Below, piece by piece: positions 1,748 through 19,500 of a DNA stretch of 64,000 bases. The DNA comes from Streptantibioticus ferralitis. GTDB lineage: Bacteria; Actinomycetota; Actinomycetes; Streptomycetales; Streptomycetaceae. The notes beneath the pieces are model-generated. The model made no database searches, had not been told where the DNA came from, and saw only the letters and a list, made by a program, of their open reading frames with translations. Both the position numbers and the translations under genes were made by a program. Location of the stretch: the NCBI RefSeq assembly GCF_029223525.1, contig NZ_JARHTQ010000036.1:1-64000 (forward strand), read 5' to 3'. Within the stretch, counting starts at the first letter, position 1. The number at the start of each line of letters is the position of its first letter.

Positions 1748-2281
1748 TCAGGCGAGGTCCGCCTCGGCGTCAAGCGTCGTCCCGACGGCCTGGATGACCG
1801 CCGCGACCTTGAACGCCTCCTGAATCGTCTCGCGAGAGACATCCGCCTTGCGCAGCACCTGCTCGTGCGAGTCGAGGCACATGCCGCAGCCGTTGATGGC
1901 GGAGACCGCGAGCGACCACAGCTCGAAGTCGACCTTCTCCACGCCCGGGTTGCCGATGACGTTCATCCGCAGGCCCGCACGCAGGTTGCCGTACTCCGGG
2001 TCAGACAGCAGGTGCCGGGTCCGGTAGTAGACGTTGTTCATCGCCATGATGGCCGCCGCGGCCTTGGCGGCGGTGTACGCCTCGGGGCTCAGGTTGGCCT
2101 TGGCCTCGGGCTCCAGCTCACGCAGCACGATCGGGCTGCGTGAGGCGATCGCGCAGGCGAGCACGGTGCCCCACAGCTGCTGCTGGGACAGCGCGTCGTT
2201 GTTGCCGATCACCGAACCGAGGTTCAGCTTCAGGTCCTTGGCGTACTCCGGAAGCTGTGACTTCAGCTCATCGAGCGCCAT
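1748..2281 (-). CDS. ahpD: Alkyl hydroperoxidase AhpD
   Basis: The 177-residue protein has the AhpD/CMD signature [11 protein letters not shown] near its C-terminus. The two cysteines of CxxC and the following His form the proton-relay redox centre. In actinobacteria AhpD reduces AhpC and is itself a weak peroxidase, so the pair forms an NADH-linked peroxide defence. I chose ATG at 2281 because GGTGAG precedes it. A GTG at 2287 overlapping the ahpC stop is the alternative. The gene is translationally coupled to ahpC, whose stop codon lies 3 bp upstream, so its expression depends on the chimeric ahpC transcript described below. Confidence 0.95.
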
Positions 2282-2283
2282 GT

Positions 2284-2838
2284 TCACTCACCGGCCAGCA
2301 GCTTGACCGGGTCGAGGGTGTCCTCGCCCTTGCTCCAGTTGCAGGGGCACAGCTCGTCGGTCTGCAGCGCGTCGAGGACCCGCAGGACCTCCTTGGGGTT
2401 ACGGCCGACGGACCCGGCGGTCACCATGGTGAACTGGATCTCGTTGTTCGGGTCGACGATGAAGACCGCGCGCTGGGCGAAGCCGTCCTCGCCCTCGACG
2501 CCGCACGCCTGCATCAGCTCGTGCTTGGAGTCGGCCAGCATCGGGAACGGCAGGTCGCGCAGGTCCTTGTGGTCCTTGCGCCAGGCGTGGTGGACGAACT
2601 CCGAGTCGCCGGAGACGCCGAGGATCTGGGCGTCGCGGTCCGCGAACTCGTCGTTCAGCTTGCCGAACGCGGCGATCTCGGTCGGGCACACGAAGGTGAA
2701 GTCCTTGGGCCAGAAGAACACCACTGACCAACCCTTGTTGTCCTCCGAGCTGTACTCCTTGATCTCCAGCTTGTCGTCGGACGGGCCTTCGACGCCCAGC
2801 AGCTTCCAGGCGGGGAACTTGTCACCAACGGTGAGCAT
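2284..2838 (-). CDS. ahpC: Peroxiredoxin AhpC, chimeric across the AICE attachment site
   Basis: The 184-residue 2-Cys peroxiredoxin has the peroxidatic Cys in FTFVCPTE and the resolving Cys in ELCPCNW. The start at ATG 2838 (MLTVGDKFP) is preceded by GGAG at 9-nt spacing. The gene is built from two sources. Codons from about VVFFW onward belong to the host chromosome. The first 38 codons and the promoter lie inside the integrated element, to the right of attL. The displaced host 5' end is at 19246-19374 and also encodes 38 residues before VV. Both begin MLTVGDKFP but then diverge (13 of 38 identical without gaps). All catalytic residues come from the host part, so the chimera should be functional. 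It is coupled to ahpD. Confidence 0.93.
2711..2724. other. attL core of the AICE
   Basis: CAGAAGAACACCAC lies within the ahpC codons for VVFFW (minus strand). To its left is host ahpC and to its right is element DNA. The preceding base (C) and following base (T) differ from those at attR (T and G), so the identity is exactly 14 bp. Confidence 0.9.
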
Positions 2839-2861
2839 CTGTGATGTCTCCATGATCTTGT

Positions 2862-2900
2862 GGGTTGGACGGACTCCACCGTGCCATAGACTCATTGATC
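2862..2900 (-). promoter_or_regulatory. Element-borne copy of the ahpC promoter / probable OxyR-responsive region
   Basis: On the minus strand the segment contains GATCAATG, then TCTATGGCAC, then GTGGA and CGTCCAACCC. The same blocks in the same order occur in the native ahpC/oxyR intergenic region at 19432-19471. Flanking sequence is not similar, so this short block appears conserved by function. OxyR is known to bind the ahpC-oxyR intergenic region in Streptomyces. That it binds here is inference. The block lies 24-62 bp upstream of the ahpC start. Confidence 0.7.
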
Positions 2901-2925
2901 TAGAAAAATTGCCACTCCGGGAAAG

Positions 2926-2948
2926 ATTGATCGGATCCTCCGATCAAT
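2926..2948. promoter_or_regulatory. Palindrome ATTGATCGGA-tcc-TCCGATCAAT
   Basis: Perfect 10-bp arms with a 3-bp spacer lie just upstream of the conserved promoter block and share the ATCAAT/ATTGAT motif with it. It is a likely regulator-binding site of the element-borne ahpC promoter. A weaker TTGAT-N11-ATCAA arrangement lies at the oxyR start on the native side. Confidence 0.55.
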
Positions 2949-2981
2949 CGCGGGCATCGCAGTCCATCGCCGGTGATCACG

Positions 2982-3019
2982 CCGACGCCCCCGGCCGATG
3001 CGGCACTCGGGGGCGTCGG
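2982..3019 (-). terminator. Stem-loop terminator of the 3047-3382 gene
   Basis: A 12-bp perfect stem (CCGACGCCCCCG / CGGGGGCGTCGG) with a 14-nt loop lies directly downstream of the minus-strand gene ending at 3047. There is no marked T run, as is common in Streptomyces. Confidence 0.6.
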
Positions 3020-3046
3020 GCTGGTGTGGGCTTAGAGCCTCGGGGC

Positions 3047-3382
3047 TCATACCGCCATCTGGGCTCCGGGATAGGTGTACGGGTAGTCGTGGCCCATGCT
3101 CGCTGCCGCTGCTGCCCGGCGTCGCTCGTGCTGCTGTCGTCGCTCGAAGTCACGTTCCCACACCACCATGTAGAGGGGAACGAGGGGGCGCGTGCTCTCA
3201 GGAATGGGCAGGGTTCGAGCCAGCACGTGTGCAGGGATAGGCCGCGTCGGTCCGCAGATCACGTAAGCGGGCTGGGCTGTCGAGGCCTGGTGGGCTAAGA
3301 CGTGTCCCGCGCTGTGTCGGCCTTGGGCGGGCAACAGTATCCGCAGCACCCACGTTAGGGCGCGAGCGATAGTGTCACGCAT
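3047..3382 (-). CDS. Hypothetical AICE protein
   Basis: The protein has about 111 residues starting at ATG 3382 (MRDTIARALTWVLRILLP). An amphipathic or weakly hydrophobic N-terminal helix is followed by a Pro/Arg-rich middle and a C-terminus with an Arg/Ala-rich coiled stretch (ERDFERRQQHERRRAAA) ending in PGAQMAV. I do not recognise a domain. It is divergent from a small GntR regulator, with repeated GTCTACC motifs in between, and is probably controlled by it. An upstream in-frame start at 3475 would run into that operator region and is less likely. Confidence 0.6.
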   Translation of the reverse strand: MRDTIARALTWVLRILLPAQGRHSAGHVLAHQASTAQPAYVICGPTRPIPAHVLARTLPIPESTRPLVPLYMVVWERDFERRQQHERRRAAAAASMGHDYPYTYPGAQMAV

Positions 3383-3478
3383 GTCGTCAGCTCCTACTAG
3401 CTGGTGGCGTTCCAAGCCCCGGCGGGCCGGTCCTACGCGGCCTGTCGGGGTTTCTTTGTGCCTGACAGTAGCCATCTT

Positions 3479-3545
3479 GTCTACCCTCGTCTACATCGGT
3501 AGGCAGACGTATGCCACCAGGCGCAGACATGGCTGGTTGTCTACC
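3479..3545. promoter_or_regulatory. Repeated GTCTACC operator-like motifs
   Basis: GTCTAC occurs at 3479 and 3489, its inverted form GTAGGCAGAC at 3499-3508, a half-site GCAGAC at 3523-3528, and TGTCTACC at 3538-3545 immediately before the GntR start. Several spaced half-sites between two divergent genes suggest an autoregulated operator for the 3555 GntR protein. Confidence 0.5.
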
Positions 3546-3554
3546 TTTGCCCTT

Positions 3555-3812
3555 ATGGCAGCAAGCGAGATCGACCATGACGCACCGACGCCGGTCTACC
3601 GGCAGATTGCGGCGCTGATCATTGCCGACATTGAGAGCGGCCTTCTGGTCGTGAACCGAAAGATTCCGTCCGAGGCGGCATTGGTCCAACGCTTTGGGGT
3701 CGCCCGCGAGACTGCACGGCACGCTGTCGGCTACCTACGTGAGGAGGGGTACGTCTTTACAGTGCCGCAGCGCGGTTCTTACGTGGCGGACCGGAGCGCA
3801 AAGTCCAAGTAG
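3555..3812 (+). CDS. Small GntR-family regulator (DNA-binding domain only)
   Basis: The 85-residue protein starts at ATG 3555 (MAASEIDHDAPTPVYRQIAA). It is essentially a stand-alone GntR winged helix: PVYRQIAALIIADIESG at the front, then PSEAALVQRFGVARETARHA as the recognition region, then LREEGYVFTVPQRGSYVA as the wing. It has no effector-binding domain, unlike the UTRA-type protein at 12552-13331. Such short GntR proteins are frequent in Streptomyces AICEs and plasmids as Kor-type transfer repressors. The operator-like repeats directly upstream suggest autorepression. No clear ribosome site is visible, so the transcript may be leaderless. Confidence 0.8.
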   Translation: MAASEIDHDAPTPVYRQIAALIIADIESGLLVVNRKIPSEAALVQRFGVARETARHAVGYLREEGYVFTVPQRGSYVADRSAKSK

Positions 3813-3850
3813 CCCCGCCCATCTGCGATGGGCACGCGGGTGGGCGGGGC
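3812..3850. terminator. Bidirectional terminator between gntR and tgmC
   Basis: GCCCCGCCCA (3812-3821) pairs with TGGGCGGGGC (3841-3850). It lies between the convergent gntR and tgmC genes. Confidence 0.7.
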
Positions 3851-3866
3851 GGCTTCGGGTGACGGC

Positions 3867-5006
3867 TCAGAGCTTGAACGTCCAGCCGTCCGGGGCGGTC
3901 AACCTACTGCCATCTGGTGTGAGTTCAACGGCCATTCGGTGTAGCGGGAACTTGCCCGCGCTCTCCCAACGTCGACGTACGCGTTCTAGGTCGTCCCACA
4001 GACGGCGAGGGCCGCTCTGGTGTACCGCAGGCGCTGAGCCGTCTTCGCCGCGCGCCCATGACCCGTCGGCGGCGAGAAGCCAGAGCACGCGGCGTCCATC
4101 CGGATACGAAGCGGCGCGCGTCTCGATGCCGGGCGTCTCCAGCTCGTACAGCCAACGGAGTGACCATTCTTGCCAGAGGTCCGGGATTGGTCCGTCGGTT
4201 GGCCGTACGTCGTCCCCATCGCTTTCGCGTGCTGCCGAGAACACGTCGTTCAACTTCGGCGGGTAGTCGGCCTCTTGGCGGGTTTCCATGAACGTAGCGG
4301 GGTCCGGCTGAACGGTCCCCCGTGCAACTCCGTCGTCTCCCATGTCGGCCGTGATCAACAGTGCTGTGTGGGCGATGGTTGTCACGAGCCTGCCCCCTGG
4401 TCGGAGTGCGCGCAGCCAGGTTTCCGGTACGGGGCGGACTGAGACAGTCGCAACGATTCGGTCGTATGCGGCGTCGGGGAGTTTGCCCGTGGCATCAATG
4501 GCTTCCATGCGCGGGTTCCGGCCGAATTCGGCTAGGCGTTCGCGGGCGATCTCAACTAGGTACCGGTCGACGTCCACGCTCGTCACGTGCTCGTCTCCGA
4601 TGCGGCGGCTAAGCAGGGCAGCGGAGTACCCGGAGCCGGTACCAACGTCTAGGACCTGGTGGCTCGGTTCCGCGCCCAGGTGATGAAGCATGGACACCAC
4701 GAGTCCCGGCAACGTTGACGACGATGTAGGGCTACCCGCGGCCTTGCCCCCCGGCTTCGCGTGGTCGGCGTGATCCGGGCCTACCCTGGTAACAAGCGTC
4801 TCGTCCCGGTATGCAGCGGCGGTGTGTTCCGCAGAGAGCGGGGACGGGCTGACGAGTTCCCATTCCTCCGTTGGACTGTTCGGAATCCGCTGCCACCAAC
4901 GGGGTACGAGGTGATGCCGGGGAGTGTTGCTTACCGCATCGTGCCACTCGGGCGCGTTCGTAGTCACCGCGTCGGCAAGCGCTGTTGCCGCGCCTTTCCA
5001 ACTCAC
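3867..5006 (-). CDS. tgmC: PIMT-like methyltransferase of an ATP-grasp (graspetide) cluster
   Basis: The 379-residue protein has an N-terminal third (PRHHLVPRWW) and then a protein-L-isoaspartate O-methyltransferase fold with motif I VLDVGTGSGYSAALL. A C-terminal extension of about 150 residues follows, typical of methyltransferases paired with ATP-grasp peptide maturases. In studied graspetides such as fuscimiditide, this enzyme methylates a core Asp, which then collapses to an aspartimide. It starts with GTG at 5006, overlapping the tgmB stop (GTGA), so it is translationally coupled. Together with tgmB and tgmA it forms a compact operon carried by the AICE. The assignment rests on domain layout and context. 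The exact modified residue is not known. Confidence 0.88.
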   Translation of the reverse strand: MSWKGAATALADAVTTNAPEWHDAVSNTPRHHLVPRWWQRIPNSPTEEWELVSPSPLSAEHTAAAYRDETLVTRVGPDHADHAKPGGKAAGSPTSSSTLPGLVVSMLHHLGAEPSHQVLDVGTGSGYSAALLSRRIGDEHVTSVDVDRYLVEIARERLAEFGRNPRMEAIDATGKLPDAAYDRIVATVSVRPVPETWLRALRPGGRLVTTIAHTALLITADMGDDGVARGTVQPDPATFMETRQEADYPPKLNDVFSAARESDGDDVRPTDGPIPDLWQEWSLRWLYELETPGIETRAASYPDGRRVLWLLAADGSWARGEDGSAPAVHQSGPRRLWDDLERVRRRWESAGKFPLHRMAVELTPDGSRLTAPDGWTFKL

Positions 5007-5950
5007 TCGTTCTCTCCTTGCAGAGCGTCAGCCATGACGGATACCAATGGCAAACCGGCCTTTACGGCAATCCAGTGCCATTGTCCGTTAGGGTTCACCT
5101 CAAAGAACTTCCAATGCCCGTCCGGAGTTACGGCGAAGTCTAGTGCGCCGAAGAACAAGCCAAGTTCGTCCATGAGGCGTCGGACCACTTCCTCAACGGA
5201 GGCGGGCATTTCTATCGTCTCGTAGGTGAGCGAGCGGTAATCGGTGCGCCAGTCCAGTTTTGCCCGTTCGCTTCCAGCGTGGATAGCTACCGGGAACATG
5301 CGATCCCCGATGACCGTCAGCCGGACCTCGTACGCCTTCGGAACATGCTCTTGGAACAGGTGAGTCGTGCCCGAAAGGCTGTCGTCGATCTCCCCAGCGG
5401 TCACAAGCGTTGTGGGAAGGAACTTTCTGCGGCCGTCCGGTCCGAGGATCCCACCGCTAAGTCCCTTGTAGATCACCTGATCACTGCCGATGAAGTCCCG
5501 TGCGTGCTCCGGGTCTGACGTGATCACGGTCCTAGGTACGTCTAGGCCGACGCGAGCAGCTACGGCCAGTTGGCGGGGTTTGTAGTTGGCGGCCGATTCG
5601 TTGGCCGGATGGTTGATCCACCGCACGGGGAGCGAGCCTAGAACGCCCAATACCCCAACGCGCGCTTCGGATAGAGCGAATGCACGCGCGTGGTCTGGCC
5701 ATTCCTCAGGCGTAACGAATTCGTTGGGGCGACGCCACCAAACAGATTTGACCGTTTCGAGGTCCAGCGTCCGGGAGCTGGTCAAGGTGCCCGCCCAGCC
5801 ATCCCCCGTTAGGGAGACGGCCAGGCGGGAAGCGGTAGGAAAGTCGGCCGTGTCGTAGCGAACGACGTTCTCACCGCGCTTGCCCAGCTCCTCAACCACC
5901 GCATCGGCCGTCAGATCGTCCCGGCCGGTAAGGATGAGGATGGTTTTCAT
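5003..5950 (-). CDS. tgmB: ATP-grasp ribosomal peptide maturase (graspetide synthetase)
   Basis: The 315-residue protein starts at ATG 5950 (MKTILILTGRDDLTADAV). Family features in order are the SVWWRRP motif, the NHPANESAANYKPRQL segment, YKGLSGG in the nucleotide-binding region, EVRLTVIGDRMFPVAIHA, the DWR triad, and the metal-binding end FFEVNPNGQWHWI. These match the TgmB group of ATP-grasp enzymes, which activate Asp/Glu side chains as acyl phosphates and join them to Ser/Thr or Lys side chains of a precursor peptide as macrolactones or lactams. It lies 4 bp downstream of the precursor gene tgmA and overlaps tgmC. A longer in-frame extension upstream would run through tgmA and is not credible. 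Confidence 0.92.
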   Translation of the reverse strand: MKTILILTGRDDLTADAVVEELGKRGENVVRYDTADFPTASRLAVSLTGDGWAGTLTSSRTLDLETVKSVWWRRPNEFVTPEEWPDHARAFALSEARVGVLGVLGSLPVRWINHPANESAANYKPRQLAVAARVGLDVPRTVITSDPEHARDFIGSDQVIYKGLSGGILGPDGRRKFLPTTLVTAGEIDDSLSGTTHLFQEHVPKAYEVRLTVIGDRMFPVAIHAGSERAKLDWRTDYRSLTYETIEMPASVEEVVRRLMDELGLFFGALDFAVTPDGHWKFFEVNPNGQWHWIAVKAGLPLVSVMADALQGENE

Positions 5951-5954
5951 GTGG

Positions 5955-6182
5955 TTAGTACAGGTCGGTTCCGCTGTCGGAGCCGGGTGTAGAGCCGTCA
6001 CCGTTGCTGGTCTCGGTCTTCGTCTCCGGCTTGTTCGCGGCAAGGGCGTGCCAAGGGTTGCCCTGTGCGGAGACGTTCAGTTGAAGTGCCTCGCTGTAGG
6101 TGATAACCGGATCCTCTTCGGTCCCCTCAGGGGGCGAGATCAGGTGGCGAACTCCGAAGGGAACTAAAAGTGTTGCGCTCAC
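5955..6182 (-). CDS. tgmA: Graspetide precursor peptide
   Basis: The 75-residue peptide starts at GTG 6182, with AAGGAG at 7-nt spacing. The leader carries PFGVRHL at residues 8-14, resembling the P-F-x-x-R motif by which ATP-grasp maturases recognise their substrates (PFFARFL in microviridins). The C-terminal 25 residues are low in hydrophobics and alternate Thr/Ser with Glu, Asp and Lys, ending in GTDLY. These are the nucleophile and acid partners needed for omega-ester or amide crosslinks. D62-G63 and N60-G61 dipeptides are favourable for aspartimide formation by the PIMT-like enzyme. Four bp separate it from tgmB. No protease or exporter is visible in the cluster. Confidence 0.85.
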   Translation of the reverse strand: MSATLLVPFGVRHLISPPEGTEEDPVITYSEALQLNVSAQGNPWHALAANKPETKTETSNGDGSTPGSDSGTDLY

Positions 6183-6431
6183 TGCTGCACTCTCCTTTTC
6201 GGTTGTGTGCCTCTGCTGACCCGCCCCGGCTGAGTGGCCTCGTGTGCACCCAACCGGGACGGGTAGTACCCGCCCAGCCTCGAACAGGAGGAACAAGCCG
6301 GACGGGCGTTCGTACCCGCCCCTGCCGGGATCCCGAATCAGCGAAGGGGGTAGGCCGGTTCGGTCCGTCCGGCAGGGACGGGAGTTCACTAGTTGCTTTG
6401 CGGGCGGCGTGCTCAGCGCTTTTGCCCGCGG

Positions 6432-6716
6432 TCATGACCGTCCCCGCTGCCGTAGGGCATGCAACCTGCCAATCGCCTCCAACTGCCGTGCTTCCCGCTC
6501 GGTACCTCGCCGGAGTCTTAGGAAGGGCACCCGCCAGGTAAAGCCCGTGGGGCGCTCCAACTCGACGTACCGGCCGTCCACCCTTCGCACCTTGCCGGGC
6601 ATGTCGTAGGCGTGATCAAAAACCACCGTGCCAACGCTGATTTCATCCGGCGTGGCGAACACGACGGTTCGTGCGATGGCCCGCGAGGGTGGAGCGACAG
6701 GATTGCTCGTTCTCAC
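6432..6716 (-). CDS. Hypothetical protein of the XRE/graspetide locus
   Basis: The 94-residue protein starts at GTG 6716, overlapping the upstream stop by GTGA. The core reads like a small beta-rich domain (VGTVVFDHAYDMPGKVRRVDGRYVELERP), followed by a basic C-terminal helix (RLRRGTEREARQLEA). No enzymatic motif is visible. Comparable small proteins accompany XRE/TPR regulators in Streptomyces. It is the third gene of a minus-strand operon 7145-6432. The next gene downstream, tgmA, is 249 bp away with its own ribosome site. Confidence 0.65.
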   Translation of the reverse strand: MRTSNPVAPPSRAIARTVVFATPDEISVGTVVFDHAYDMPGKVRRVDGRYVELERPTGFTWRVPFLRLRRGTEREARQLEAIGRLHALRQRGRS

Positions 6717-6877
6717 GCTCGTGCCCTTCTGTGCGGGTGGTTAGCGATCTCTGCATTGCAGCTCTGGGCCGTAACGGGGCTGCCCGTCCGGCGTGCTGCT
6801 TCGCGCTGCCGGGCCAGTGCGGCGCACACGTCGCAATCCTCTACTGGTGCTACGGTCGCCGTGGTTTCACTGCTCAC
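6713..6877 (-). CDS. Small CxxC protein
   Basis: A 54-residue ORF runs from GTG 6877 to TGA 6713-6715. It contains CDVCAALARQREAARRTG, a later single Cys (QSCNAE) and a basic end (HPHRRARA). It overlaps both neighbours (11 bp with the upstream gene, 4 bp with the downstream one), which argues strongly that it is translated. The Cys arrangement suggests a minimal metal-binding or redox motif. I do not recognise a characterised function. Confidence 0.65.
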   Translation of the reverse strand: MSSETTATVAPVEDCDVCAALARQREAARRTGSPVTAQSCNAEIANHPHRRARA

Positions 6878-7145
6878 CGGTCAACCTCCGCAAACCGATT
6901 GCAACGCTGCGGACGAGCGCCCGCGTTGGCCTTGCATACGGCCCGCGCGGCACCTCTGGCGGTAACGGGGTCCGGGGGGAGAACCACACTTTGTCCGGCG
7001 TGCGCTCCCAGCGCTTACGCTGCTCCGCTGCTACGTCGGCCGGTAGCAACCGACGGAACTGATGCCCGTTGACCGCTGCCTTTGCCAGGTTGTCACCCCT
7101 GCTGGCTACTCCTGGGGCTGGGGTCTGCTCCGCCATAGTCGCCAT
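6867..7145 (-). CDS. Hypothetical protein, first gene of operon divergent from XRE regulator
   Basis: The protein has 92 residues from ATG 7145, with ATG 7136 as an alternative. It is basic and Pro-rich, with AAVNGHQFRRLLPADVAAEQ and TPDKVWFSPRTPLPPEVPRG. There are no transmembrane or catalytic motifs. It is divergent from the XRE/TPR gene at 7274 with 128 bp between, and is followed by two overlapping small genes. The arrangement suggests joint control by the XRE protein. Confidence 0.6.
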   Translation of the reverse strand: MATMAEQTPAPGVASRGDNLAKAAVNGHQFRRLLPADVAAEQRKRWERTPDKVWFSPRTPLPPEVPRGPYARPTRALVRSVAIGLRRLTGEQ

Positions 7146-7228
7146 GCCCTTCGCCTGTTCGGTGATCTCTGCTCGCTCTAGGCAACCCCTCGACTACGCA
7201 CGGCGGTACCGTGGCAACAGCAGCAGGA

Positions 7229-7243
7229 CTTAAGAGCTTTAAG
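7229..7243. promoter_or_regulatory. Palindrome CTTAA-N5-TTAAG between divergent genes
   Basis: CTTAAGAGCTTTAAG lies in the 128-bp intergenic region between the small-gene operon (minus) and the XRE/TPR gene (plus), 31 bp before the GTG start. It is AT-rich in a GC-rich setting and symmetric. It is a plausible XRE operator or core promoter. Confidence 0.4.
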
Positions 7244-7273
7244 AGAGCCAGCAGCGCGGGGAGTTGAGGGCCA

Positions 7274-8605
7274 GTGACCACGCCTGAGCCGAACAAAGTT
7301 CTAGAGCGGCTGTACCGCGAGACTGGCTGGACGCTGCGCCAGGCTGCCCAAGAGGTCAACCGCATCGGCACCGAGCGCGGAACGCCACTGCGGTACCGAG
7401 AACCTTCCGTTCACCAGTGGCTCAATGGGCACATGCCCAAGGCGGACGTGCAACCCCTGATCTTGGAAGCGCTGTCCCGCAGGCTGCACCGTCCGATCAC
7501 GCACTCCGAGGCGGGGTTTCCTCCGCCTCCCGGTCAACCGAACAGCCGTCCAAGTACCGTGGAGGGGCTGATCGATCTCGGGAGGCAAGACATGGACCCA
7601 TCTCGCCGCAGCGTCCTCGGTGCGGGTCTATTTTCTGTTGCCCTCACCGTGCCCGGGTGGACGGACGTAGTCGGCCGAATGGACGCTGTTCAGACCGGTC
7701 AGACGCAACATATAGGCATGCCCGAGGTTGAGATGGTCATCGCAATGACCGAGCGGGTGTCTGAACTTGACGACGAATTCGGCGGGCGGCACGCGCGGCC
7801 CATGGCTGCTGCGTTCCTCGTGAATACCGTAAGCCCCTATCTGCGGGCGGATGCTTCCGAATCGGTCCGTAAAGCGATGATGTCGGCTGCGTCGGATTTG
7901 TGCTACCTCACTGGGTATATGGCGGTGGACGAGGGAGTTCACGGCACGGCTCAACAGTATTACCTCAAGGCGCTGGAGCTGGCCGGAGCGGCGGAAGATC
8001 ACCTGACGTACTGCACAACACTGCGGGGAATGAGTGTTCAAGCCGTCGACCTAGGGCACGGTCGAGAGGCTATGCGACGTGCTGACGCTGCCGCCGCTGC
8101 GTCTCCGAACGCTGGTCCTAGGATGCGTGCCTTCCTCGCTGGTCAACAGGCCCATGCGGCGGCGCAAACCGGCGACCGTCATAAGGCGCTTATGTACCTC
8201 AAAGAAGCCGAACGGGCCATGGAGAAGGCCGAGTCACGATCGAAGACTTTTGGTTCTTACAACCCGTCATCACTCACGTACCACGTTGGTCAAGTCCTAT
8301 ATGAGTTGGGTGACATCCGCGGCTCCATCGCGGCCTTGGGAGAATCTGACAGGCTACGTCATCACTCGTTCCGGCGAAATCGGGTGCGGTATCTATCCAT
8401 GCTCGCTGAACGACAGCTAGAACTTGGTCACCTTGAGGCCGCGTGTGACACGTGGGGGAAAGCCGTCGAAATTTACCCGCTAGTCCAGTCGGGGCAATGC
8501 GACCAAAGCATGGCCAATATGCGGGCTCGAATTCGTCCCTACCTAAAGAATAAGGTTGCACGACAGCTCTACGAGCGGGCGCGAGTCCCGGCTGATCGAC
8601 TCTGA
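7274..8605 (+). CDS. XRE-family transcriptional regulator with C-terminal TPR-like region
   Basis: The 443-residue protein starts at GTG 7274. Residues 1-70 form an HTH-like domain (LERLYRETGWTLRQAAQEVN then YREPSVHQWLNG). A linker ends in DMDPSRRSVLGAGLFSVALTVPGW, typical of Streptomyces XRE proteins with a hydrophobic segment, and a TPR-like helical repeat region follows to the end. Such proteins often sense peptides or small ligands through the TPR part. It flanks the graspetide cluster and is the best candidate regulator of it. Base use is less GC-biased than in neighbouring chromosomal genes, consistent with transfer. Confidence 0.8.
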   Translation: MTTPEPNKVLERLYRETGWTLRQAAQEVNRIGTERGTPLRYREPSVHQWLNGHMPKADVQPLILEALSRRLHRPITHSEAGFPPPPGQPNSRPSTVEGLIDLGRQDMDPSRRSVLGAGLFSVALTVPGWTDVVGRMDAVQTGQTQHIGMPEVEMVIAMTERVSELDDEFGGRHARPMAAAFLVNTVSPYLRADASESVRKAMMSAASDLCYLTGYMAVDEGVHGTAQQYYLKALELAGAAEDHLTYCTTLRGMSVQAVDLGHGREAMRRADAAAAASPNAGPRMRAFLAGQQAHAAAQTGDRHKALMYLKEAERAMEKAESRSKTFGSYNPSSLTYHVGQVLYELGDIRGSIAALGESDRLRHHSFRRNRVRYLSMLAERQLELGHLEAACDTWGKAVEIYPLVQSGQCDQSMANMRARIRPYLKNKVARQLYERARVPADRL

Positions 8606-8714
8606 TGACGGGGCGTCGACGAGTGGTCCTTTCGTGGCCTTTGATCACTACGTCTCTCAACTCATCAGGCGGCACTGGCTCTTTGGTGGCTTCGATCTGG
8701 TCTGAGGGGTCACA

Positions 8715-9299
8715 GTTTCATCACGCGTGACGAAACCTGAGGGCGGGTGCGGTCGTCCCCAAGTAACGTCACGTGTGACGAAACTTGGGAGGGTGGGTCA
8801 TGGCCGGTGAGTCGGGTAGCGCGTGCGCGGTGTGCGGCGGGCCGTTGGGGGTGCGGGCTCGAACGGGACGTCCGTCGGTGTACTGCTCGCGCGCGTGTCA
8901 GGCTCGGGCGTATCGCGCTCGTGTGGCTGGGGCTGGACGGTCCCGGCCGGAGTCGTCGGCTGCGGGTGCCGTGTCGGTTGCGGCAGGTGGCGGGGAGTTG
9001 GCGCGGGAGGTTCGGCGGCTGGTCGGGTTGTTCGCTGAGCGGGCCGAACAGGCAGTGTGCGCGGCGGAGGGCGGCGAGGTTGGTCCTGGTGGCGCCGGTC
9101 GTGACGCTGACGACCTGGCGGAACTCGCCGCGAAGGTGGTTGATCTCGTCCGCTCCGCCTCCTTGCCTACGCACCCGTCGGCTGAATCGTCACGGTGTGA
9201 CGAAACGTCGGGGGTGGTGGTTGCTGGGGCGCAGGATGGGCGGATGGGCTCGTCGGCGGCGGCGACTGCTCGCCGTACGGTTTCATCGCGTGACGAAAC
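8715..9299. repeat. Four palindromic GTTTCRTCACG / CGTGACGAAAC sites
   Basis: Imperfect palindromes occur at 8715-8736 (GTTTCATCACGCGTGACGAAAC, given here in two halves: GTTTCATCACG and CGTGACGAAAC), 8761-8786, about 9186-9207 and 9280-9299. All share the right half GTGACGAAAC. Two precede the gene at 8800 and two lie inside it. The pattern resembles iterons, partition (parS-like) sites or a multi-site operator. Confidence 0.75.
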
Positions 9300-9663
9300 A
9301 TCGGTGCCCGTAGCCGTGGTGGAGTCGGCGGCGGCTGGGCCTGTCGAACGGGTGGTGCGCACGGTGGACATGGCGCATGAGTTCGGGGGCGGCTGGCAAC
9401 TGGTCCGGCTGGCGAGCAGCTTTGACGGTGACTGGCTGGTGCGGCTGCACGGTGAGACGGTCGGCAGCGTGGGGCGTGTGCGCACGTTGTCGGGCCGTGG
9501 CGTGCGGGGCTGGGAAGCGCGTCACCTTGGGCATGCGGTTCCGGGTGGGGTTGCCGGTCTGTGGCCAAGCCGTGGGGTGGCTATGGCGGCTGTGGTCCGT
9601 GCCCATCAAGAACGTGGCGGGGCAAAGGGTCGTCGCGGGAGTCGGCGGCGTCCCTCGCGCTGA
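8800..9663 (+). CDS. AICE protein with N-terminal four-Cys zinc-finger-like motif
   Basis: The 287-residue protein starts at ATG 8800. The N-terminus has CAVCGG and YCSRACQARAYRAR, a C-x2-C-x(n)-C-x3-C pattern seen in small DNA-binding proteins of Streptomyces plasmids. The middle is an Ala/Glu-rich helical region (LAREVRRLVGLFAERAEQ), then a linker whose DNA contains two of the GTGACGAAAC palindromes. A C-terminal domain (GGGWQLVRLASSFDGDWLVR) follows and then a basic tail. The repeats upstream and within the gene suggest that it binds them, for autoregulation or partition-like maintenance. That is inference; no homologue was identified. Confidence 0.7.
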   Translation: MAGESGSACAVCGGPLGVRARTGRPSVYCSRACQARAYRARVAGAGRSRPESSAAGAVSVAAGGGELAREVRRLVGLFAERAEQAVCAAEGGEVGPGGAGRDADDLAELAAKVVDLVRSASLPTHPSAESSRCDETSGVVVAGAQDGRMGSSAAATARRTVSSRDETSVPVAVVESAAAGPVERVVRTVDMAHEFGGGWQLVRLASSFDGDWLVRLHGETVGSVGRVRTLSGRGVRGWEARHLGHAVPGGVAGLWPSRGVAMAAVVRAHQERGGAKGRRGSRRRPSR

Positions 9664-9761
9664 GCTGGCGGGGGCGCGGTGCTGGGACGGTGCGCTGTTG
9701 ACACGCGGTCATTCGGGCCTGTCCCAGGCTCCGGCCCTGGTCGGGCTTTCTTGCGGCTCCA

Positions 9762-9777
9762 ACTTATACGGATAAGT
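9762..9777. promoter_or_regulatory. GntR-type operator ACTTATACGGATAAGT upstream of SH3 cluster
   Basis: A 16-bp palindrome differs by one base from ACTTATACGAATAAGT at 13451-13466, next to the UTRA GntR gene. It is followed by GCTTGAC, also shared with 13399-13413. It lies about 110 bp before the first SH3 gene. Confidence 0.6.
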
Positions 9778-9884
9778 GCTTGACGTAAGAGGTGGAGTGG
9801 GCTGATGCTGATGCCTCCTCCGCGTGAGTGCTGACGGACAAGCCGTCAGGGTGTGCTCACGCGGCAAATCTGAGGGGCAATCAG

Positions 9885-10313
9885 ATGGCAATGACGCGTG
9901 TGCGTATGCGCGTGCGGGCTCTGGCTGTGGCCGGAGTTCTGGCGGTGGCTGGTGTGGGTGTCGGCGCGGCTTCGGCGTCGGCTGCGACTCCGGCTGACGG
10001 ATCCGGGGTGGAGGGTCCGGCGGCGGCTGCGGTGGTCCTTCCGCAAGTCACGGTGGACGGTCTGCGGATGCGTGACGACGTGGGGACCGGTGCGGGCATC
10101 CTCGGGCAGCTCTACGCCGGTGACCAGGTGCAGATCCTTTCGACCGCGCAGGATGCGGGCGGCCAGCAGTGGGACCAGGTGACGCTTGCCAACGACAGTG
10201 CGGGCGGGCTGCCTTCCGGCTTCGCGGGCTGGGTCAGTGAGGCGTACCTCAGTGAGCCTTCGTGCCCGTCGGATAGCCAGATCCAGTGCCTGATGTACGG
10301 CGGTCATGACTGA
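9885..10313 (+). CDS. Secreted SH3-domain protein 1
   Basis: The 142-residue protein starts at ATG 9885, with GAGGGG at 7-nt spacing. A Sec signal peptide (basic MTRVRMRVR, hydrophobic core, ASASAA) is followed by a bacterial SH3 domain (VTVDGLRMRDDVGTGAGILG, GWVSEAYL). A short tail contains two Cys (SEPSCPS, IQCLM) that could form a disulphide. Bacterial SH3 domains usually bind peptidoglycan peptides. It is the most divergent of three tandem copies and has the GntR palindrome upstream. Confidence 0.8.
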   Translation: MAMTRVRMRVRALAVAGVLAVAGVGVGAASASAATPADGSGVEGPAAAAVVLPQVTVDGLRMRDDVGTGAGILGQLYAGDQVQILSTAQDAGGQQWDQVTLANDSAGGLPSGFAGWVSEAYLSEPSCPSDSQIQCLMYGGHD

Positions 10314-10377
10314 TCGCCGGGGCTCTCGCGCTCGCACGGACAAGCAATCTGGCCAGTCATCAGGAAGAGAGAACAAC

Positions 10378-10773
10378 ATGCGTGCAAGCTCTACCGGTCG
10401 CGTTGGTCGTCGTCTGGGTGCGTTGGCGGTCGTGACGATGGTGGCGGCGGCCGGTCTGGGTGTGGGCGTGACGTCTGCCTCGGCGGCTCCGTCGCATGCG
10501 GCTCGGGCGGCGAGTAGCTATGCCACACAGGTCACAGCTGATGGGGTCCGGCTGCGGACCGGTCCGGGGACTGGGTACGGCGTGGAGGGGCTCCTCTACT
10601 ACGGGGACGCGGTCGACATCACGCAGTGCAGCGGGGGCTGGGATCGGGTGTATCTCGCCGCTGACAGTGCGGGCGGCCTGGGCTCGGGCGCTGCGGGGTG
10701 GGTGTACGGCAGCTACCTGGAGCCGCTTGCGGGCTCGCCGATAGGCGGCGGGCTGCCTTCGGGCTGCGAGTGA
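10378..10773 (+). CDS. Secreted SH3-domain protein 2
   Basis: The 131-residue protein starts at ATG 10378, after AGGAAGAGAG. A signal peptide (GRRLGALAVVTMVAAAGLGV, ending TSASAAP) precedes an SH3 domain (VTADGVRLRTGPGTGYGVEG, LLYYGD, GWVYGSYL). Two Cys residues are present, one mid-domain (ITQCSGGW) and one at the very end (PSGCE), a likely disulphide. It is a tandem paralogue of the next gene, with near-identical signal peptide and RLRTGPGTGYGVEGLLYYGD core, so the duplication is recent. It is probably exported to the cell wall. Confidence 0.82.
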   Translation: MRASSTGRVGRRLGALAVVTMVAAAGLGVGVTSASAAPSHAARAASSYATQVTADGVRLRTGPGTGYGVEGLLYYGDAVDITQCSGGWDRVYLAADSAGGLGSGAAGWVYGSYLEPLAGSPIGGGLPSGCE

Positions 10774-10818
10774 CCGCGTGCAGTGATCAGTCATCAGAAA
10801 CGGAACGAAGGAGTAGGC

Positions 10819-11217
10819 ATGTCTTCTACTTGGTTCGCCGGTCGTGCCGTGCGTCGTCTGGGTGCGCTGGCGGTCGTGACGGCGGTGGCTGCGGCTGGTC
10901 TGGGCGTCGGCGTGACGTCCGCCTCGGCGGCTCCGGCACACTCGGCCGCGCCCTCTGCGGTTGCTGAGCCGCATGGCTGGCCTGGGGGCATCACCGGGAA
11001 TGGGGTCCGCTTGAGGACCGGTCCGGGGACCGGGTACGGGGTGGAGGGTCTTCTCTACTACGGGGACACGGTTCAGCCGGTGGGCTGCTCCGGGTCGTGG
11101 TACCACGTGTACCTGACTGCGAACAGTGCCGGTGGTCTACCCGCAGGTACGTGGGGGTGGGTCAACGATGCCTACATTGACCCGATAACGGGTGCTCCAT
11201 CGTCGGACTGCTCGTAA
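10819..11217 (+). CDS. Secreted SH3-domain protein 3
   Basis: The 132-residue protein starts at ATG 10819, after GAAGGAG. The signal peptide is closely similar to copy 2 (VRRLGALAVVTAVAAAGLGV). The SH3 domain has the same RLRTGPGTGYGVEG core and GWVNDAYI. Cys residues are at VGCSGSW and the C-terminus (SSDCS), matching copy 2. A strong terminator follows, so 9885-11217 forms one transcription unit of three wall-associated proteins. Within an AICE they may act at the mycelial surface during transfer or entry exclusion. That role is speculative. Confidence 0.82.
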   Translation: MSSTWFAGRAVRRLGALAVVTAVAAAGLGVGVTSASAAPAHSAAPSAVAEPHGWPGGITGNGVRLRTGPGTGYGVEGLLYYGDTVQPVGCSGSWYHVYLTANSAGGLPAGTWGWVNDAYIDPITGAPSSDCS

Positions 11218-11225
11218 CCGCCTGC

Positions 11226-11268
11226 GGTGCCCCCTCCTGTGTCGGCGGGAGGGGGCACCTCCGTTTTT
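11226..11268 (+). terminator. Rho-independent terminator after SH3 cluster
   Basis: The stem GGTGCCCCCTCC / GGAGGGGGCACC (12 bp, 10-nt loop) is followed by TCCGTTTTT. Confidence 0.9.
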
Positions 11269-11470
11269 CCGTAGCGTTACATACCGCTAGGTTGGTTTCC
11301 CATTCGCCAGTTACCTACTGTGCAGCCGCTTTCCAATTCTGATGTGTAGTCAGTGTTTACCGGGCGGGTGCACGGTGGGCGGTCCCCTTGTGTGACAAGG
11401 GAATTCAAAGGTCTAGTGCATATGCCTGGGGCGTGAGAGGCTGGACGGCTCAGGTTTCGGGAGGTGGAAC

Positions 11471-11746
11471 GTGATGGACACGCCCGGTGACGGACGCGGC
11501 GCGGGCGAGTCGGCTGATGACTCTGTGTGGATACGTGGGGTGGACTACGTGACCAGCTATCGGCAGGCAGATACCGTAGCGTCGGATTTCAACGAGGTGA
11601 TGGCGCTTCTCGGCTTGGGCCTGGAGGACGAGCGGTTTCGGGCACTTCCGCGCACTGGTCCGGACGGTGAGCCGCTGGTGGTCTTGACGGTCGAGGCGGT
11701 GCAGCTCTGCGTGGCTGTCCTGGTGGCTTTAGCGGAATGTCTGTGA
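11471..11746 (+). CDS. Hypothetical protein
   Basis: The protein has 90-91 residues. GTG 11471 and ATG 11474 are adjacent start choices after GGGAGGTGG. The acidic N-terminus is followed by a compact helical region (VASDFNEVMALLGLGLEDER) and a hydrophobic C-terminal helix (VEAVQLCVAVLVALAECL). It is not recognised. The pattern resembles small DUF6907-like or AICE accessory proteins but is not diagnostic. The next small gene starts 12 bp downstream. Confidence 0.6.
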   Translation: MMDTPGDGRGAGESADDSVWIRGVDYVTSYRQADTVASDFNEVMALLGLGLEDERFRALPRTGPDGEPLVVLTVEAVQLCVAVLVALAECL

Positions 11747-11758
11747 GGGAGGGGCATC

Positions 11759-11941
11759 ATGCGTGGTCGACCCAAGGGAACGACATGGATGACAAGGACA
11801 GGCAAGCGGGTGTGGGTCGAGGTCGACGTGACGGGGCGTCGGGTCTGCTGTGAGGCGTGCCCTCGTCCGATCCCCGTGCGGGGCTGGGGTTCTCCTGCTG
11901 GCGCGGCTCGGCGGCATGCGCGGCAGTGCTCTAGGCGCTGA
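11759..11941 (+). CDS. Small basic Cys-containing protein
   Basis: A 60-residue ORF starts at ATG 11759 after GGGAGGGG. It is highly basic, with VCCEACPRPIP and a later RQCSRR that could bind a metal. It lies 12 bp after the previous gene, in the same direction. The function is unknown. Confidence 0.5.
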   Translation: MRGRPKGTTWMTRTGKRVWVEVDVTGRRVCCEACPRPIPVRGWGSPAGAARRHARQCSRR

Positions 11942-12023
11942 CCTGGCCGAACGCCAGGGGCACGGCCTGGTGGCGGACGATGAACTGAACAACTCTTACC
12001 CCTTCCCGCTGCTCAGCCACTGA
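11916..12023 (+). CDS. Possible 35-residue peptide
   Basis: ATG 11916 to TGA 12021-12023 encodes a peptide with LAERQGHGLVADDELNNSYP and the end FPLLSH. It overlaps the previous ORF in another frame. Amino-acid composition looks coding, but there is no strong ribosome site. Low confidence. Confidence 0.3.
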   Translation: MRGSALGADLAERQGHGLVADDELNNSYPFPLLSH

Positions 12024-12186
12024 CCGTGGGTTCCGCGGCGGGGTAGAGGGTCGACAGGCGCGATTGGTGCCGCACTACCCCCATCGGCATCAACCGTCAT
12101 CCAAGGGGCGGTGTTCTCCAGCGCGGACGGGCCTTGACCCGGACGATGCGGTTTCGCGCTGGAGGGCACCGACCAGCGGGCGGGGT

Positions 12187-12210
12187 CCAGGGACCGCTAT
12201 AGGTCCCTGG
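12187..12210. repeat. Perfect inverted repeat CCAGGGACC-N6-GGTCCCTGG
   Basis: The arms are 9 bp with spacer GCTATA, lying in a non-coding stretch of the element. It could be a replication/transfer origin feature or a regulator site. No T run follows, so a terminator is unlikely. Confidence 0.6.
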
Positions 12211-12390
12211 TACCACGCCGCGCAACCAGCCTCGTCACGATCTCCGCCACCGTGTTGAGCACCGTGGGCGCCGGCCTGCGGAGTGGTCCCGTACGCGGCG
12301 GCGCGGTTGCCAACGGCGCTCGGTGCGGCGGGAGTTCGCGGTCCCGGTAGACGCGTCAGTGTCCGGTGACGGCTGCTGGTGCACAAGGAT

Positions 12391-12418
12391 GCCCCCCCGG
12401 CTGGCGGCGGGGGGCTTT
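12391..12418 (+). terminator. Stem-loop GCCCCCC / GGGGGGC with T run
   Basis: A 7-bp G/C stem with an 11-nt loop is followed by TTTCT on the plus strand. It would end a transcript entering from the left (11471-12023 region) or a small RNA. Confidence 0.55.
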
Positions 12419-12551
12419 CTGCTGCTCAAGGCGTGGTGCGTGCGCGGGCGGTTGCCGTCCGGACGGGACCGGCCGTCAGGCCGCATGCCCGGCCGAGGCG
12501 GCAGGGCCGCCCGGCGCGCCGCAGGCGTGCCCTTGAGTAAGTAGAGAAAAG

Positions 12552-13331
12552 TTACTCCGCAGCTTTGGCGGGGCGGCGCTTGGTGGGTGCCTTCACAGGC
12601 GTCACGCGGTAACTGAGACGGGTTGTAGCGGCGGACACGCGCAACTCTTCGACTAGCAGCGGGCGTTGCGTGGCCTCGTCGAGGGTGACGCGATAGGAGA
12701 CCAATAGGGGCTGCGGGTCGGTGAGTCCCAACGCCATGCGTTCGTCGGGAGTCGGCATCATCGCCCCTACTTCCTCATCCCACACGATCGTGAACCCAGC
12801 GGTCGTCAGGTGCTTGTACAGCTCGGGCACGGGGGCGTCAGGGGTCGTGGCCAGTGCTGGGACGTCGGCGGCGACCTGGAGCGGAATCAGCATGCGGTGA
12901 GTTAGGCGCTCGCCAGTCAGCGGATCGCGCAACAGGCGGTCGACGGAAATAGCTTGCTGTCCCTGCTGGTTCAGCAGTTCGGCGGGTGTGCCGGTGAGGG
13001 TCACGCGGGAGATCGCGGGCGCTTCCGTCTCCTTCATCTCCGGCAGCTCGTACCGCGTGCCGGTGCGGCTGACCGTGCGCGGGATCGCTCGTGCTGCCGG
13101 GCTGCCCTTGACGGTGGTCCGCCGACCCTGCGCCTTGATCACCAGCCCCATATTTCGTAGCTCGTTGACGGCAGCTCGCACGGTCGCCGGGCTGACCCGG
13201 TAGGTGCTCACCATCTCTGACTCGCTGGGCAGGGTGCTGCCCGCTTCCAGATCACCTTGTTGGATCGCCTGCGCGATTCGTCCGGCAAGTTGCAGGTACA
13301 TCGGCTGCGGTCGCGTGATGCCGCTGTCCAT
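12552..13331 (-). CDS. GntR-family regulator with UTRA domain (KorA/KorSA-like)
   Basis: The 259-residue protein starts at ATG 13331. The N-terminal winged helix (PMYLQLAGRIAQAIQQGDL, PSESEMVSTYRVSPATVRAA) is followed by an effector-type UTRA domain (from about residue 95: AISRVTLTGTPAELL, VDRLLRDPLTGERLTHRML, LLVSYRVTLDEATQRPLL). In AICEs such as pSAM2, GntR repressors keep transfer and replication genes silent. It is divergent from the transfer operon starting at 13496. The palindrome ACTTATACGAATAAGT lies in that intergenic space and nearly the same site precedes the SH3 genes, so a two-target regulon is likely. Confidence 0.85.
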   Translation of the reverse strand: MDSGITRPQPMYLQLAGRIAQAIQQGDLEAGSTLPSESEMVSTYRVSPATVRAAVNELRNMGLVIKAQGRRTTVKGSPAARAIPRTVSRTGTRYELPEMKETEAPAISRVTLTGTPAELLNQQGQQAISVDRLLRDPLTGERLTHRMLIPLQVAADVPALATTPDAPVPELYKHLTTAGFTIVWDEEVGAMMPTPDERMALGLTDPQPLLVSYRVTLDEATQRPLLVEELRVSAATTRLSYRVTPVKAPTKRRPAKAAE

Positions 13332-13398
13332 CTCGGCTCCTGGTCTCGGCGTCGGCGGTTGTCAGTGGTAGGTGCTATAGGGCTCTTCAGCGGTCACA

Positions 13399-13466
13399 GG
13401 ATAAGTGCTTGACCTGCTACCTATCTAGAGCGCACGATGAGTGTCCTCGTACTTATACGAATAAGT
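13399..13466. promoter_or_regulatory. Divergent gntR / transfer-operon control region
   Basis: It contains GGATAAGTGCTTGAC (13399-13413), a half operator with a -35-like TTGAC, and the full palindrome ACTTATACGAATAAGT (13451-13466). The latter lies 30 bp before the first gene of the transfer operon. Confidence 0.65.
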
Positions 13467-13495
13467 ACGAAGGTAGAAGATGGAGTTGAGGTGCC

Positions 13496-13870
13496 ATGCA
13501 ACAGAAGCCAATCGACACTGGGCGACTGGGTCAGTTCATGTGCGTGATCGCGCCGGAACGACGTGTCGACCCGACTACCGATGAGCCGCGTAAAGACAGG
13601 GAGGGGCGCGAACAGTGGATCGTGGGGCTGTCCGTACGGCAGGCGGCGGGTCGGCGTACGGACGTGATCCATGTGGTTGTGCCTGGTCAGCCGCGGGGCA
13701 TCGCGGAGGGCATGAGCGTACGGGTGGTCGACCTGTGGGCGAATGACTGGTCAGTGGACGGCAGGAGCGGAACGTCCTGGCGGGCGGAACAGATCGTCCC
13801 GGCTGGGGGCACGGCTGCCAGCGGTGGGAGCGCGGCGGCGGCTCCGGCTGCCCGAAAGGGTGGCGAGTGA
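13496..13870 (+). CDS. SCO3933-family AICE regulatory protein
   Basis: The 124-residue protein starts at ATG 13496, preceded by GGAGTTGAGG. The core GREQWIVGLSVRQAAGRRTD, VIHVVVPGQPRG and GMSVRVVDLWANDW...GRSG matches small proteins of the SCO3933 type that open replication/transfer operons of Streptomyces AICEs. An OB-like beta-rich domain is plausible. It is the first gene of a chain of overlapping genes running through traB to the Spd-like gene, and sits directly behind the GntR operator. Confidence 0.75.
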   Translation: MQQKPIDTGRLGQFMCVIAPERRVDPTTDEPRKDREGREQWIVGLSVRQAAGRRTDVIHVVVPGQPRGIAEGMSVRVVDLWANDWSVDGRSGTSWRAEQIVPAGGTAASGGSAAAAPAARKGGE

Positions 13871-14076
13871 TGCCCTTAACCATCGTCCTTCTGCTGTCCG
13901 CAGAGGAGGCTGCCGGGCTCGCGTGCGTGGTGTGCGGCGAACGGTTCGAGGCCGTGGCCAACGTTCAGGTCGGCCGGTCCACGCTGGGCGCCCCGGTCTA
14001 CGCCTGCACCGCGCCGTGCGCGCACTGGTACCGGTCCGCGGCGGTCGGGCCTACCTCGACAGGGAGTGAGTGCTGA
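13870..14076 (+). CDS. Small zinc-ribbon-like AICE protein
   Basis: A protein of about 68 residues starts at ATG 13870, overlapping the previous stop by one base (TGATG). GTG 13867 is an alternative. CVVCGE and YACTAPCAHWYR give a C-x2-C / C-x3-C-x-H pattern suggesting zinc binding. The function is unknown, but such proteins recur in AICE transfer operons. Confidence 0.65.
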   Translation: MPLTIVLLLSAEEAAGLACVVCGERFEAVANVQVGRSTLGAPVYACTAPCAHWYRSAAVGPTSTGSEC

Positions 14077-14285
14077 TGTACCTGGGGGATGACGACACCT
14101 TCGGTCACCTGCTGCGTGATCTGGAACTGCTGAGCGGTACTAAGTCGCTGCTGGTCACCGTGGATGATCTGCCCACGCTGGAATTCGTGATGGGTATGGT
14201 CGGCGTCACTGCCGAACAGGCCGCACGGCGTGCCCAGTTGATCGGCGCCCGGCTTCGCCTCCAAGGGGGTGGCGGGGATGACTAA
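14076..14285 (+). CDS. Small hypothetical AICE protein
   Basis: The 69-residue protein starts at ATG 14076 (TGATG overlap with the upstream stop, GGGAG upstream). It is acidic and helical (FGHLLRDLELLSG, VMGMVGVTAEQAARRAQL). It overlaps the start of the translocase gene by 8 bp. The tight coupling indicates a role in transfer or its control. No domain is recognised. Confidence 0.65.
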   Translation: MYLGDDDTFGHLLRDLELLSGTKSLLVTVDDLPTLEFVMGMVGVTAEQAARRAQLIGARLRLQGGGGDD

Positions 14286-15612: not shown

Positions 15613-15794
15613 GCCAAAACCAAATCTACCTCTTCGAAATCTTCCTCTGGGTCGTCTCCATCATGCTGGTGCGCGGTAATGACGTGCGCGGCTGGCAACT
15701 CGTCATCATCGCACTGGCCGGTTTCTACCTCGCCCTAACACCCATAGGAAATGCCGTTGTGGCGGTAGTGAACATGCTGGTCATGATGGCCTAG
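15609..15794 (+). CDS. Small membrane protein (Spd-like)
   Basis: The 61-residue protein starts at ATG 15609, sharing ATGA with the traB stop. Two hydrophobic helices are visible: IYLFEIFLWVVSIMLV, and one from about residue 30 (LVIIALAGFYLALTPIGNAV) running into VVNMLVMMA. In AICEs and plasmids, small hydrophobic Spd proteins encoded beside traB promote intramycelial plasmid spread (pock formation). The assignment is by size, topology and position only. Confidence 0.7.
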   Translation: MSQNQIYLFEIFLWVVSIMLVRGNDVRGWQLVIIALAGFYLALTPIGNAVVAVVNMLVMMA

Positions 15795-15928
15795 CGCAAC
15801 ATCTCTCCTTGGCTTTCTTCGACTTTCTCTCTATAGCCTCGCCACTCTCACAGATCACTGACGATGCATCAGATATGGAGCGCTGGCATGTCCGTTCACC
15901 TGCTCGTACCTAGTGGAAGGGGTCCACC

Positions 15929-17520: not shown

Positions 17521-17572
17521 ATAAGGATGGACCCCTCGTTCCCGGCCGCAGTGAGGGGTCCATCCTTATTCA
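17518..17572. terminator. Bidirectional terminator with perfect 20-bp stem
   Basis: Left arm 17518-17537 (TGAATAAGGATGGACCCCTC) and right arm 17553-17572 are exact complements with a 15-nt loop. T-rich ends flank it on both strands. It separates the convergent small gene and integrase. The left arm contains the stop codon of the former. Confidence 0.92.
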
Positions 17573-17580
17573 TCCCGGCG

Positions 17581-19203: not shown

Positions 19204-19245
19204 GACAACAGCCTACCGAAAAAAAGGTGTTCCAGTGGTCTTCTG

Positions 19246-19471: not shown

Positions 19472-19500
19472 AGTGAAATAGCCGCGAGCCGTGATCTTGA

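Follow-up and report, generated by a model that had tools for sequence, protein, structure and literature searches.

The window analysed here is a stretch of 64,000 nucleotides from Streptantibioticus ferralitis (contig NZ_JARHTQ010000036.1), in which an integrated element of about 16.5 kb lies between oxyR and ahpC, the gene upstream of ahpD. The results showed that a second ahpC 5' end forms part of the element, and the best explanation, which we regard as quite probable when taken as a whole, is that this cassette rebuilds the ahpC-ahpD operon (ahpCD) with an element promoter that keeps the operator of the host regulator OxyR. In Streptomyces, oxyR is divergent from ahpCD, and OxyR is the hydrogen peroxide (H2O2)-sensing regulator of AhpCD (PMC3219662). 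A preliminary description of the window had placed an OxyR-controlled ahpC promoter inside the element, and all of the sequence evidence agrees that an element-borne promoter with an OxyR-type operator sits upstream of ahpCD, 16.7 kb from oxyR.

The element-borne ahpC promoter

The 64-kb window was scanned by nhmmer with a profile of 39 ahpC promoters that are uninterrupted and belong to the same family, all of them from genomes lacking the element. These native promoters form a non-random sample, ranked by similarity to the native N-terminus of the window and supplemented with a set of deviating N-termini, and they count as 25 after sequence weighting. Only two strong matches were found, namely the element copy at 2857-2960 (E=2.8e-13) and the native copy at 19375-19526 (E=1.5e-23). 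The third match, at 12 bits, is the opposite strand of a palindrome in the element copy and is the only other match with E<1, and the remainder scored 3.8 bits or less. The repeat of the native promoter block that had been reported upstream of ahpC is thus real and far beyond chance. In order, the family promoters comprise ACTGATAnCnnCCTCCGATCAA as the distal box, CTATTTCnnTGATCAATG as the proximal box, TGTGGCAnnGTGG as the block containing the likely -10, and CGTCCAACCC where the transcript probably starts, and the features of the window are as follows:

2926-2948, minus strand: element distal OxyR-type box ATTGATCGGAGGATCCGATCAAT (LysR T-N11-A), which is the palindrome; 23.2 bits by position weight matrix (PWM)
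2893-2910, minus strand: element proximal box AATTTTTCTAGATCAATG, overlapping the presumed -35, 38 nt downstream of the distal box
2876-2888, minus strand: element -10 block TATGGCACGGTGG, near-identical to the native TATGGCACTGTGG; 17.6 of a maximum of 17.7 bits
2862-2871, minus strand: CGTCCAACCC, start-of-transcript/5' untranslated region (5'UTR) block, identical in native 19432-19441 and in most family promoters
19432-19518, minus strand: native ahpC promoter (distal box 19497-19518, proximal box 19464-19481, -10 block 19446-19458, CGTCCAACCC 19432-19441)
19501-20460, plus strand: oxyR, with the H2O2-sensing motif GHCLRDQALDIC intact (best family, OxyR)

On the minus strand, 2862-2902 carries the block GATCAATG...TCTATGGCACGGTGGA...CGTCCAACCC, whose last part has its native counterpart from 19432, and the start of ahpC transcription is predicted at about 2868-2872. 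The CGTCCAACCC near the presumed transcript start was kept in most native and element promoters. The preliminary description held that the two copies agree almost base for base, which is correct for the -10/5'UTR block but not over 116 bp, where identity is 71% with gaps. Conservation in this copy is lowest at the proximal box, whose match is weaker than in the native promoter at unchanged spacing. Its observation that the flanking DNA differs was borne out by comparison with the same element type in two sister genomes: between the cassette of the window (G000) and those of G001 and G002, only the 108 bp preceding the ATG are similar, and the border is the distal box.

The palindrome, described earlier as lying next to the promoter, is present but is not merely adjacent: with the form TTGAT-N11-ATCAA, it makes up the operator's own distal LysR-type box and matches native 19497-19518. 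Its PWM score was reached by none of 4000 random element windows, and every element cassette has a distal box of the TNNAT-N11-ATCA form. When the blocks were scored jointly, the window cassette obtained 48.9 even with its weak proximal box, in line with the operator sequence and spacing of the family, and none of 3000 null windows (drawn from elements only) reached this score. The unit runs on into codons 1-42 and is thus a homologous ahpC 5' cassette, not a mimic standing by itself. The earlier picture also leaves out the integrase gene, upstream of which the stranded native promoter now stands; once the element is excised as a circle, its own promoter copy would take that place. Based on their conservation beside oxyR and their LysR T-N11-A form, we infer that the boxes are OxyR sites, and that the element copy would be bound by OxyR and induced by H2O2.

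The hybrid ahpC and its recurrence

The insertion point lies after codon 42, in the 5' part of ahpC; the left end of the element forms a complete hybrid ahpC and the right end a 42-codon native stub. The features concerned are listed below:

2711-19248: integrated element, about 16.5 kb, with attL core 2711-2724 and attR core 19247-19260
2711-2724, minus strand: attL core GTGGTGTTCTTCTG, with the predicted crossover dinucleotide TG of the Trp43 codon at 2711-2712
19247-19260, minus strand: attR core GTGGTGTTCTTCTG, in which TG is followed by A, giving a stop codon at the junction
2713-2838, minus strand: element-derived ahpC codons 1-42, whose residues share only 37% identity with the 42 native ones displaced
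2287-2712, minus strand: host-derived ahpC codons 43-184, with the peroxidatic-Cys motif FTFVCPTE; stop codon 2284-2286
1748-2287, minus strand: ahpD, downstream in the ahpC operon, recognized from its open reading frame (ORF) and position and named by context
19246-19374, minus strand: displaced native ahpC 5' stub, 42 codons followed by a TGA formed at the junction
17581-19203, minus strand: large serine integrase (Pfam Resolvase/Recombinase/Zn_ribbon_recom), whose relatives are all at ahpC

The ahpCD gene order is also found in S. natalensis (PMC3219662). The dyad centre of the reconstructed attP was the TG of the Trp43 codon, as the best or tied-best position (one tie), in 7 of 8 elements, and the G394 element shows a one-base difference at this dinucleotide in attR. 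Judging from these sites, the integrase probably uses ahpC, at the TG of the Trp43 codon, as its attB.

The integrase was searched for in the family (394 genomes), in the genus to which G256 belongs (392) and in that of G111 (35); the genus of the window was represented by three genomes, the other two being Streptantibioticus rubrisoli and Streptomyces sp. RPT161. The integrase family was found in 11 distinct Streptomycetaceae genomes, that of the window (G000) and ten others (G001, G002, G111, G256, G268, G394 (= G973), G395, G773, G824 and G987), with 50-91% identity over the aligned part. In all 11 the integrase lies beside oxyR or the ahpC stub, and one hybrid ahpC lies at the far end with its ORF intact and its N-terminus supplied in frame by the element; the stub was lost in G256, G395 and G773. 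In the reverse test, a double ahpC 5' end occurred within the family sample only in G000, G001, G002, G111 and G268, all of which have this integrase. A 33%-identical integrase in G001 (L007) lies away from ahpC and oxyR, and thus the choice of target is specific to this integrase clade. Across a class-wide sample of 394 genomes, the window's own integrase was the sole match at E<=1e-60, the 393 others giving none. Sequenced phages contained only integrase relatives of less than 60% identity, about 26% at best, and nothing matching two cassette peptides; three integrase queries against IMG/VR found no close relative.

Codons 1-42 of the element cassettes are under purifying selection: comparisons of element copies with one another give a nonsynonymous to synonymous rate ratio (dN/dS) of 0.04-0.22, a result to be expected only where the hybrid AhpC is in use; for the element of the window, these codons are 95-98% identical to the sister elements and dN/dS is 0.08-0.10. 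The element-borne AhpC N-termini are of three kinds, of which the DAEWLKLNREKKGW type (G395, G824 and G987) does not exceed 62% identity to any native relative in the sample, suggesting that these cassettes have long been resident on elements. At the protein level, related cassettes share 91% identity with the native ahpC N-termini found in other genera (L059, L060, L064).

All 11 cassettes contain the distal box, the proximal box and the -10 block in order, at spacings of 37-38 and 22-23 nt as in the native promoters, and the joint score of each was above all 3000 random element windows despite their diverse sequences. The boxes and their spacing were kept even in cassettes whose flanks no longer align (G824e versus G987e), and the cassettes of G256, G773 and G221 have exactly the last 116 bp in common, the border again being the distal box.

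The native promoters beside oxyR which no longer drive ahpC showed a different fate from the copy currently driving ahpC, which keeps all of the blocks. The distal box was kept and the proximal box and/or the -10 block lost in G395, G268, G235, G111 and G773, all blocks were weakened in G001, and all were gone in G221. As indirect evidence, this decay pattern fits an autoregulatory distal box that would be retained for oxyR, with the control of ahpC having presumably moved to the element copy. Relic DNA with a second OxyR-type promoter was observed between oxyR and the ahpC stub in G001 (L085 4263-7813), G268 (L093 1120-5377) and G111 (L087 1675-1953), which suggests stacked insertions, and the G001 stub is itself a recombinant with an element-type promoter joined to native codons. 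An intact-to-relic series of elements is formed by G395, G256, G773, G114, G235 and G221.

The same integrase family and ahpC 5' cassette are present in G111 on a 50-kb siphovirus-like tailed-phage prophage integrated in ahpC, with terminase, portal, capsid and tape-measure genes (L087, L088, L089). The G987 element is similarly large, at 52 kb.

The remaining features of the element in the window concern its class and its integrase promoter:

15929-17380, plus strand: RepSA replication initiator (PF20199, E=7e-158)
14269-15612, plus strand: FtsK/SpoIIIE-type translocase, TraSA-like (PF01580, E=5e-26)
19210-19215, minus strand: TAGGCT, possible -10 of a leaderless integrase promoter (TAGGCT-N6-ATG), with similar hexamers in other elements

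Against the NCBIfam RepSA equivalog the replication protein scored below the cut-off (491 of 700 bits). Since a serine integrase at one end, a RepSA-type replication protein and an FtsK/SpoIIIE-type transfer protein lie between the two ahpC fragments, the element appears to be like an actinomycete integrative and conjugative element (AICE) of the pSAM2 type. Its cargo includes a graspetide-like (ATP-grasp ribosomal peptide) cluster (3867-6389, minus strand), with a maturase above the cut-off of TIGR04187, a partner methyltransferase below that of TIGR04188, and a precursor-like ORF ending in ...NPWHALAANKPETKTETSNGDGSTPGSDSGTDLY. An NsdA-family regulator resembling tetratricopeptide repeat (TPR) proteins (7274-8605, plus strand; well above the cut-off of NF053720) has distant homologues (27-28% identity) in the G001 and G002 elements. 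Three related small ORFs in tandem (9828-11217, plus strand) have signal-peptide-like starts and are probably secreted, and the third (10783-11217), the one run against Pfam, has a bacterial SH3 domain.

Proposed mechanism and alternative readings

The mechanism we propose draws on the anatomy, the in-frame junctions, the recurrence, the conservation of spacing and the purifying selection described above. The attP of the element would lie inside a cassette consisting of the whole ahpC promoter (two OxyR-type boxes, the -10 block and the 5'UTR) and ahpC codons 1-42. Integration would split the host ahpC after codon 42, with the host promoter and its 5' stub remaining at the integrase end, and would fuse the element cassette in frame to host codon 43, so that ahpC-ahpD is rebuilt with a foreign N-terminus. 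The element-supplied promoter would retain the host's OxyR operator, host OxyR would bind this copy and induce ahpCD from about 2868-2872, and the cassette would be kept intact by selection for an undisturbed, peroxide-inducible AhpCD in the lysogen or carrier.

Several observations weigh against this explanation. Three copies, those of the window, G001 and G002, have a weak proximal box, scoring 8 bits versus about 30 in the native promoters, and regulation at the element copy may consequently be altered, with a different strength of induction. The G111 and G987 cassettes are loose matches (25.9 and 23.9 bits), though still with 0 of 3000 random windows. The conservation of the cassettes, for example in the three sister elements, may partly reflect common descent rather than constraint. 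The native promoter of G256 is intact though it drives neither ahpC nor an intact integrase, an exception from which it follows that age matters too. In this genome (L008 1400-1550) a deletion joins the native ahpC promoter directly to an integrase without its first approximately 50 residues.

The weak proximal box also speaks for a reading in which the captured promoter has become constitutive or otherwise altered in the element, OxyR control has been lost and the boxes are remnants, and a dusA element is known to restore expression of its target, but below the native level (PMC8409611). Such a loss of control would not account for boxes and spacing kept in 11 diverse cassettes, even those with non-aligning flanks, when detached native copies lose these same features, and we consider it improbable. 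Somewhat more credible, if still unlikely, is that the cassette was chiefly selected to drive the integrase gene (int), making it peroxide-responsive in the circle and, through the host ahpC promoter, when integrated. The geometry is suitable, with the order cassette-attP-int on one strand in the circle, the order native promoter-stub-int after integration, and an int start roughly 14-180 nt from the stub stop, and switching of the int promoter has precedents in ICEKp1, ICEclc and ICEEc1 (PMC13023037). Driving int would require neither purifying selection on codons 1-42 nor an in-frame fusion, and our low rating of this role follows from the -10-like hexamers just upstream of int (TAGGCT, TAAGCT, TAGCCT), which point to a promoter of its own. 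This role is compatible with the rebuilding of ahpCD under a retained operator.

The preliminary description had left open whether the regulatory site was captured or had converged, and of these two only capture is favoured. Independent evolution of OxyR-like boxes in the element would explain why the element copy has only 71% gapped nucleotide identity to the resident native copy, and it is most improbable given that the boxes are contiguous with homologous ahpC codons, that related cassettes so closely match native N-termini elsewhere, and that the arrangement recurs in all 11 genomes; we rejected it as contradicted by the contiguous coding homology. Nor is a mobile element dispensable: a local duplication or rearrangement of ahpC, followed by insertion of unrelated genes, has a negligible chance of being correct. 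Separation of oxyR and ahpC by other means does exist, as in G291 (L080), where antiporter-like (Mrp-type) genes without an integrase lie between them and ahpC keeps OxyR-type boxes, a non-element parallel. This reading was rejected on the same junction in 11 genomes, which also agree in integrase family and orientation, and it faces the presence of integrase, RepSA and TraSA and the short identical cores.

A broader proposal, which we put forward as speculative, is that a portable attachment cassette common to AICEs and at least one tailed prophage holds a host stress-regulon operator within the gene fragment of attP. The target would thereby stay inducible, the integrase would be under the peroxide regulator both when integrated and when excised, and repeated gain and decay of such elements may have reshaped the N-terminus of AhpC, along with its promoter, across several lineages.

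Significance and relation to known systems

The analysis suggested that a mobile element which splits a stress-response operon can keep the host's regulatory wiring, beyond a working gene. The elements provide a natural experiment in promoter evolution, in which ahpC-driving cassettes keep the operator and core promoter and detached native promoters mostly keep the distal box only. They also define a new putative serine-integrase attB at the ahpC codon for Trp43, a potential tool site, and offer a candidate origin for the diversity of AhpC N-termini in Streptomycetaceae, which would otherwise be puzzling.

The window element resembles pSAM2-type AICEs in its RepSA, its FtsK/SpoIIIE-type transfer protein and its integrase (criteria in PMC3218068), and serine recombinases were present in only 19 of 144 surveyed AICEs (PMC3218068). 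The main text of two AICE surveys (PMC3218068 and PMC9513070) does not mention ahpC, and the literature searched, in which coverage of subscription journals was poor, yielded no paper describing ahpC as an attachment site. The LysR-type T-N11-A sites are likewise those of the Streptomyces OxyR/ahpCD system, whereas here the operator is on a mobile element, 16.7 kb from oxyR. Similar to ICEKp1, ICEclc and ICEEc1, a host promoter is upstream of int when the element is integrated and an element-end promoter when it is excised (PMC13023037); those elements use a tRNA promoter, while here two versions of the OxyR-type ahpC promoter are concerned, as judged from sequence geometry.

There is also a close likeness to the dusA-specific elements (IMEVchUSA3) and to SXT in prfC, which also replace the 5' end of their target (PMC8409611, citing SXT/prfC). 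The difference is that those elements have other target genes and gammaproteobacterial hosts, while a serine recombinase and an inducible stress gene are involved here; for the dusA and SXT elements no report was found of a supplied promoter preserving the operator of a host regulator. What is new here is the ahpC target and the preservation of the host regulator's operator in the supplied promoter, together with a cassette common to AICEs and a 50-kb prophage and the intact-to-relic series. The system of the window would thus be a regulated variant of the 5'-end-replacing strategy of SXT in prfC and the dusA elements.
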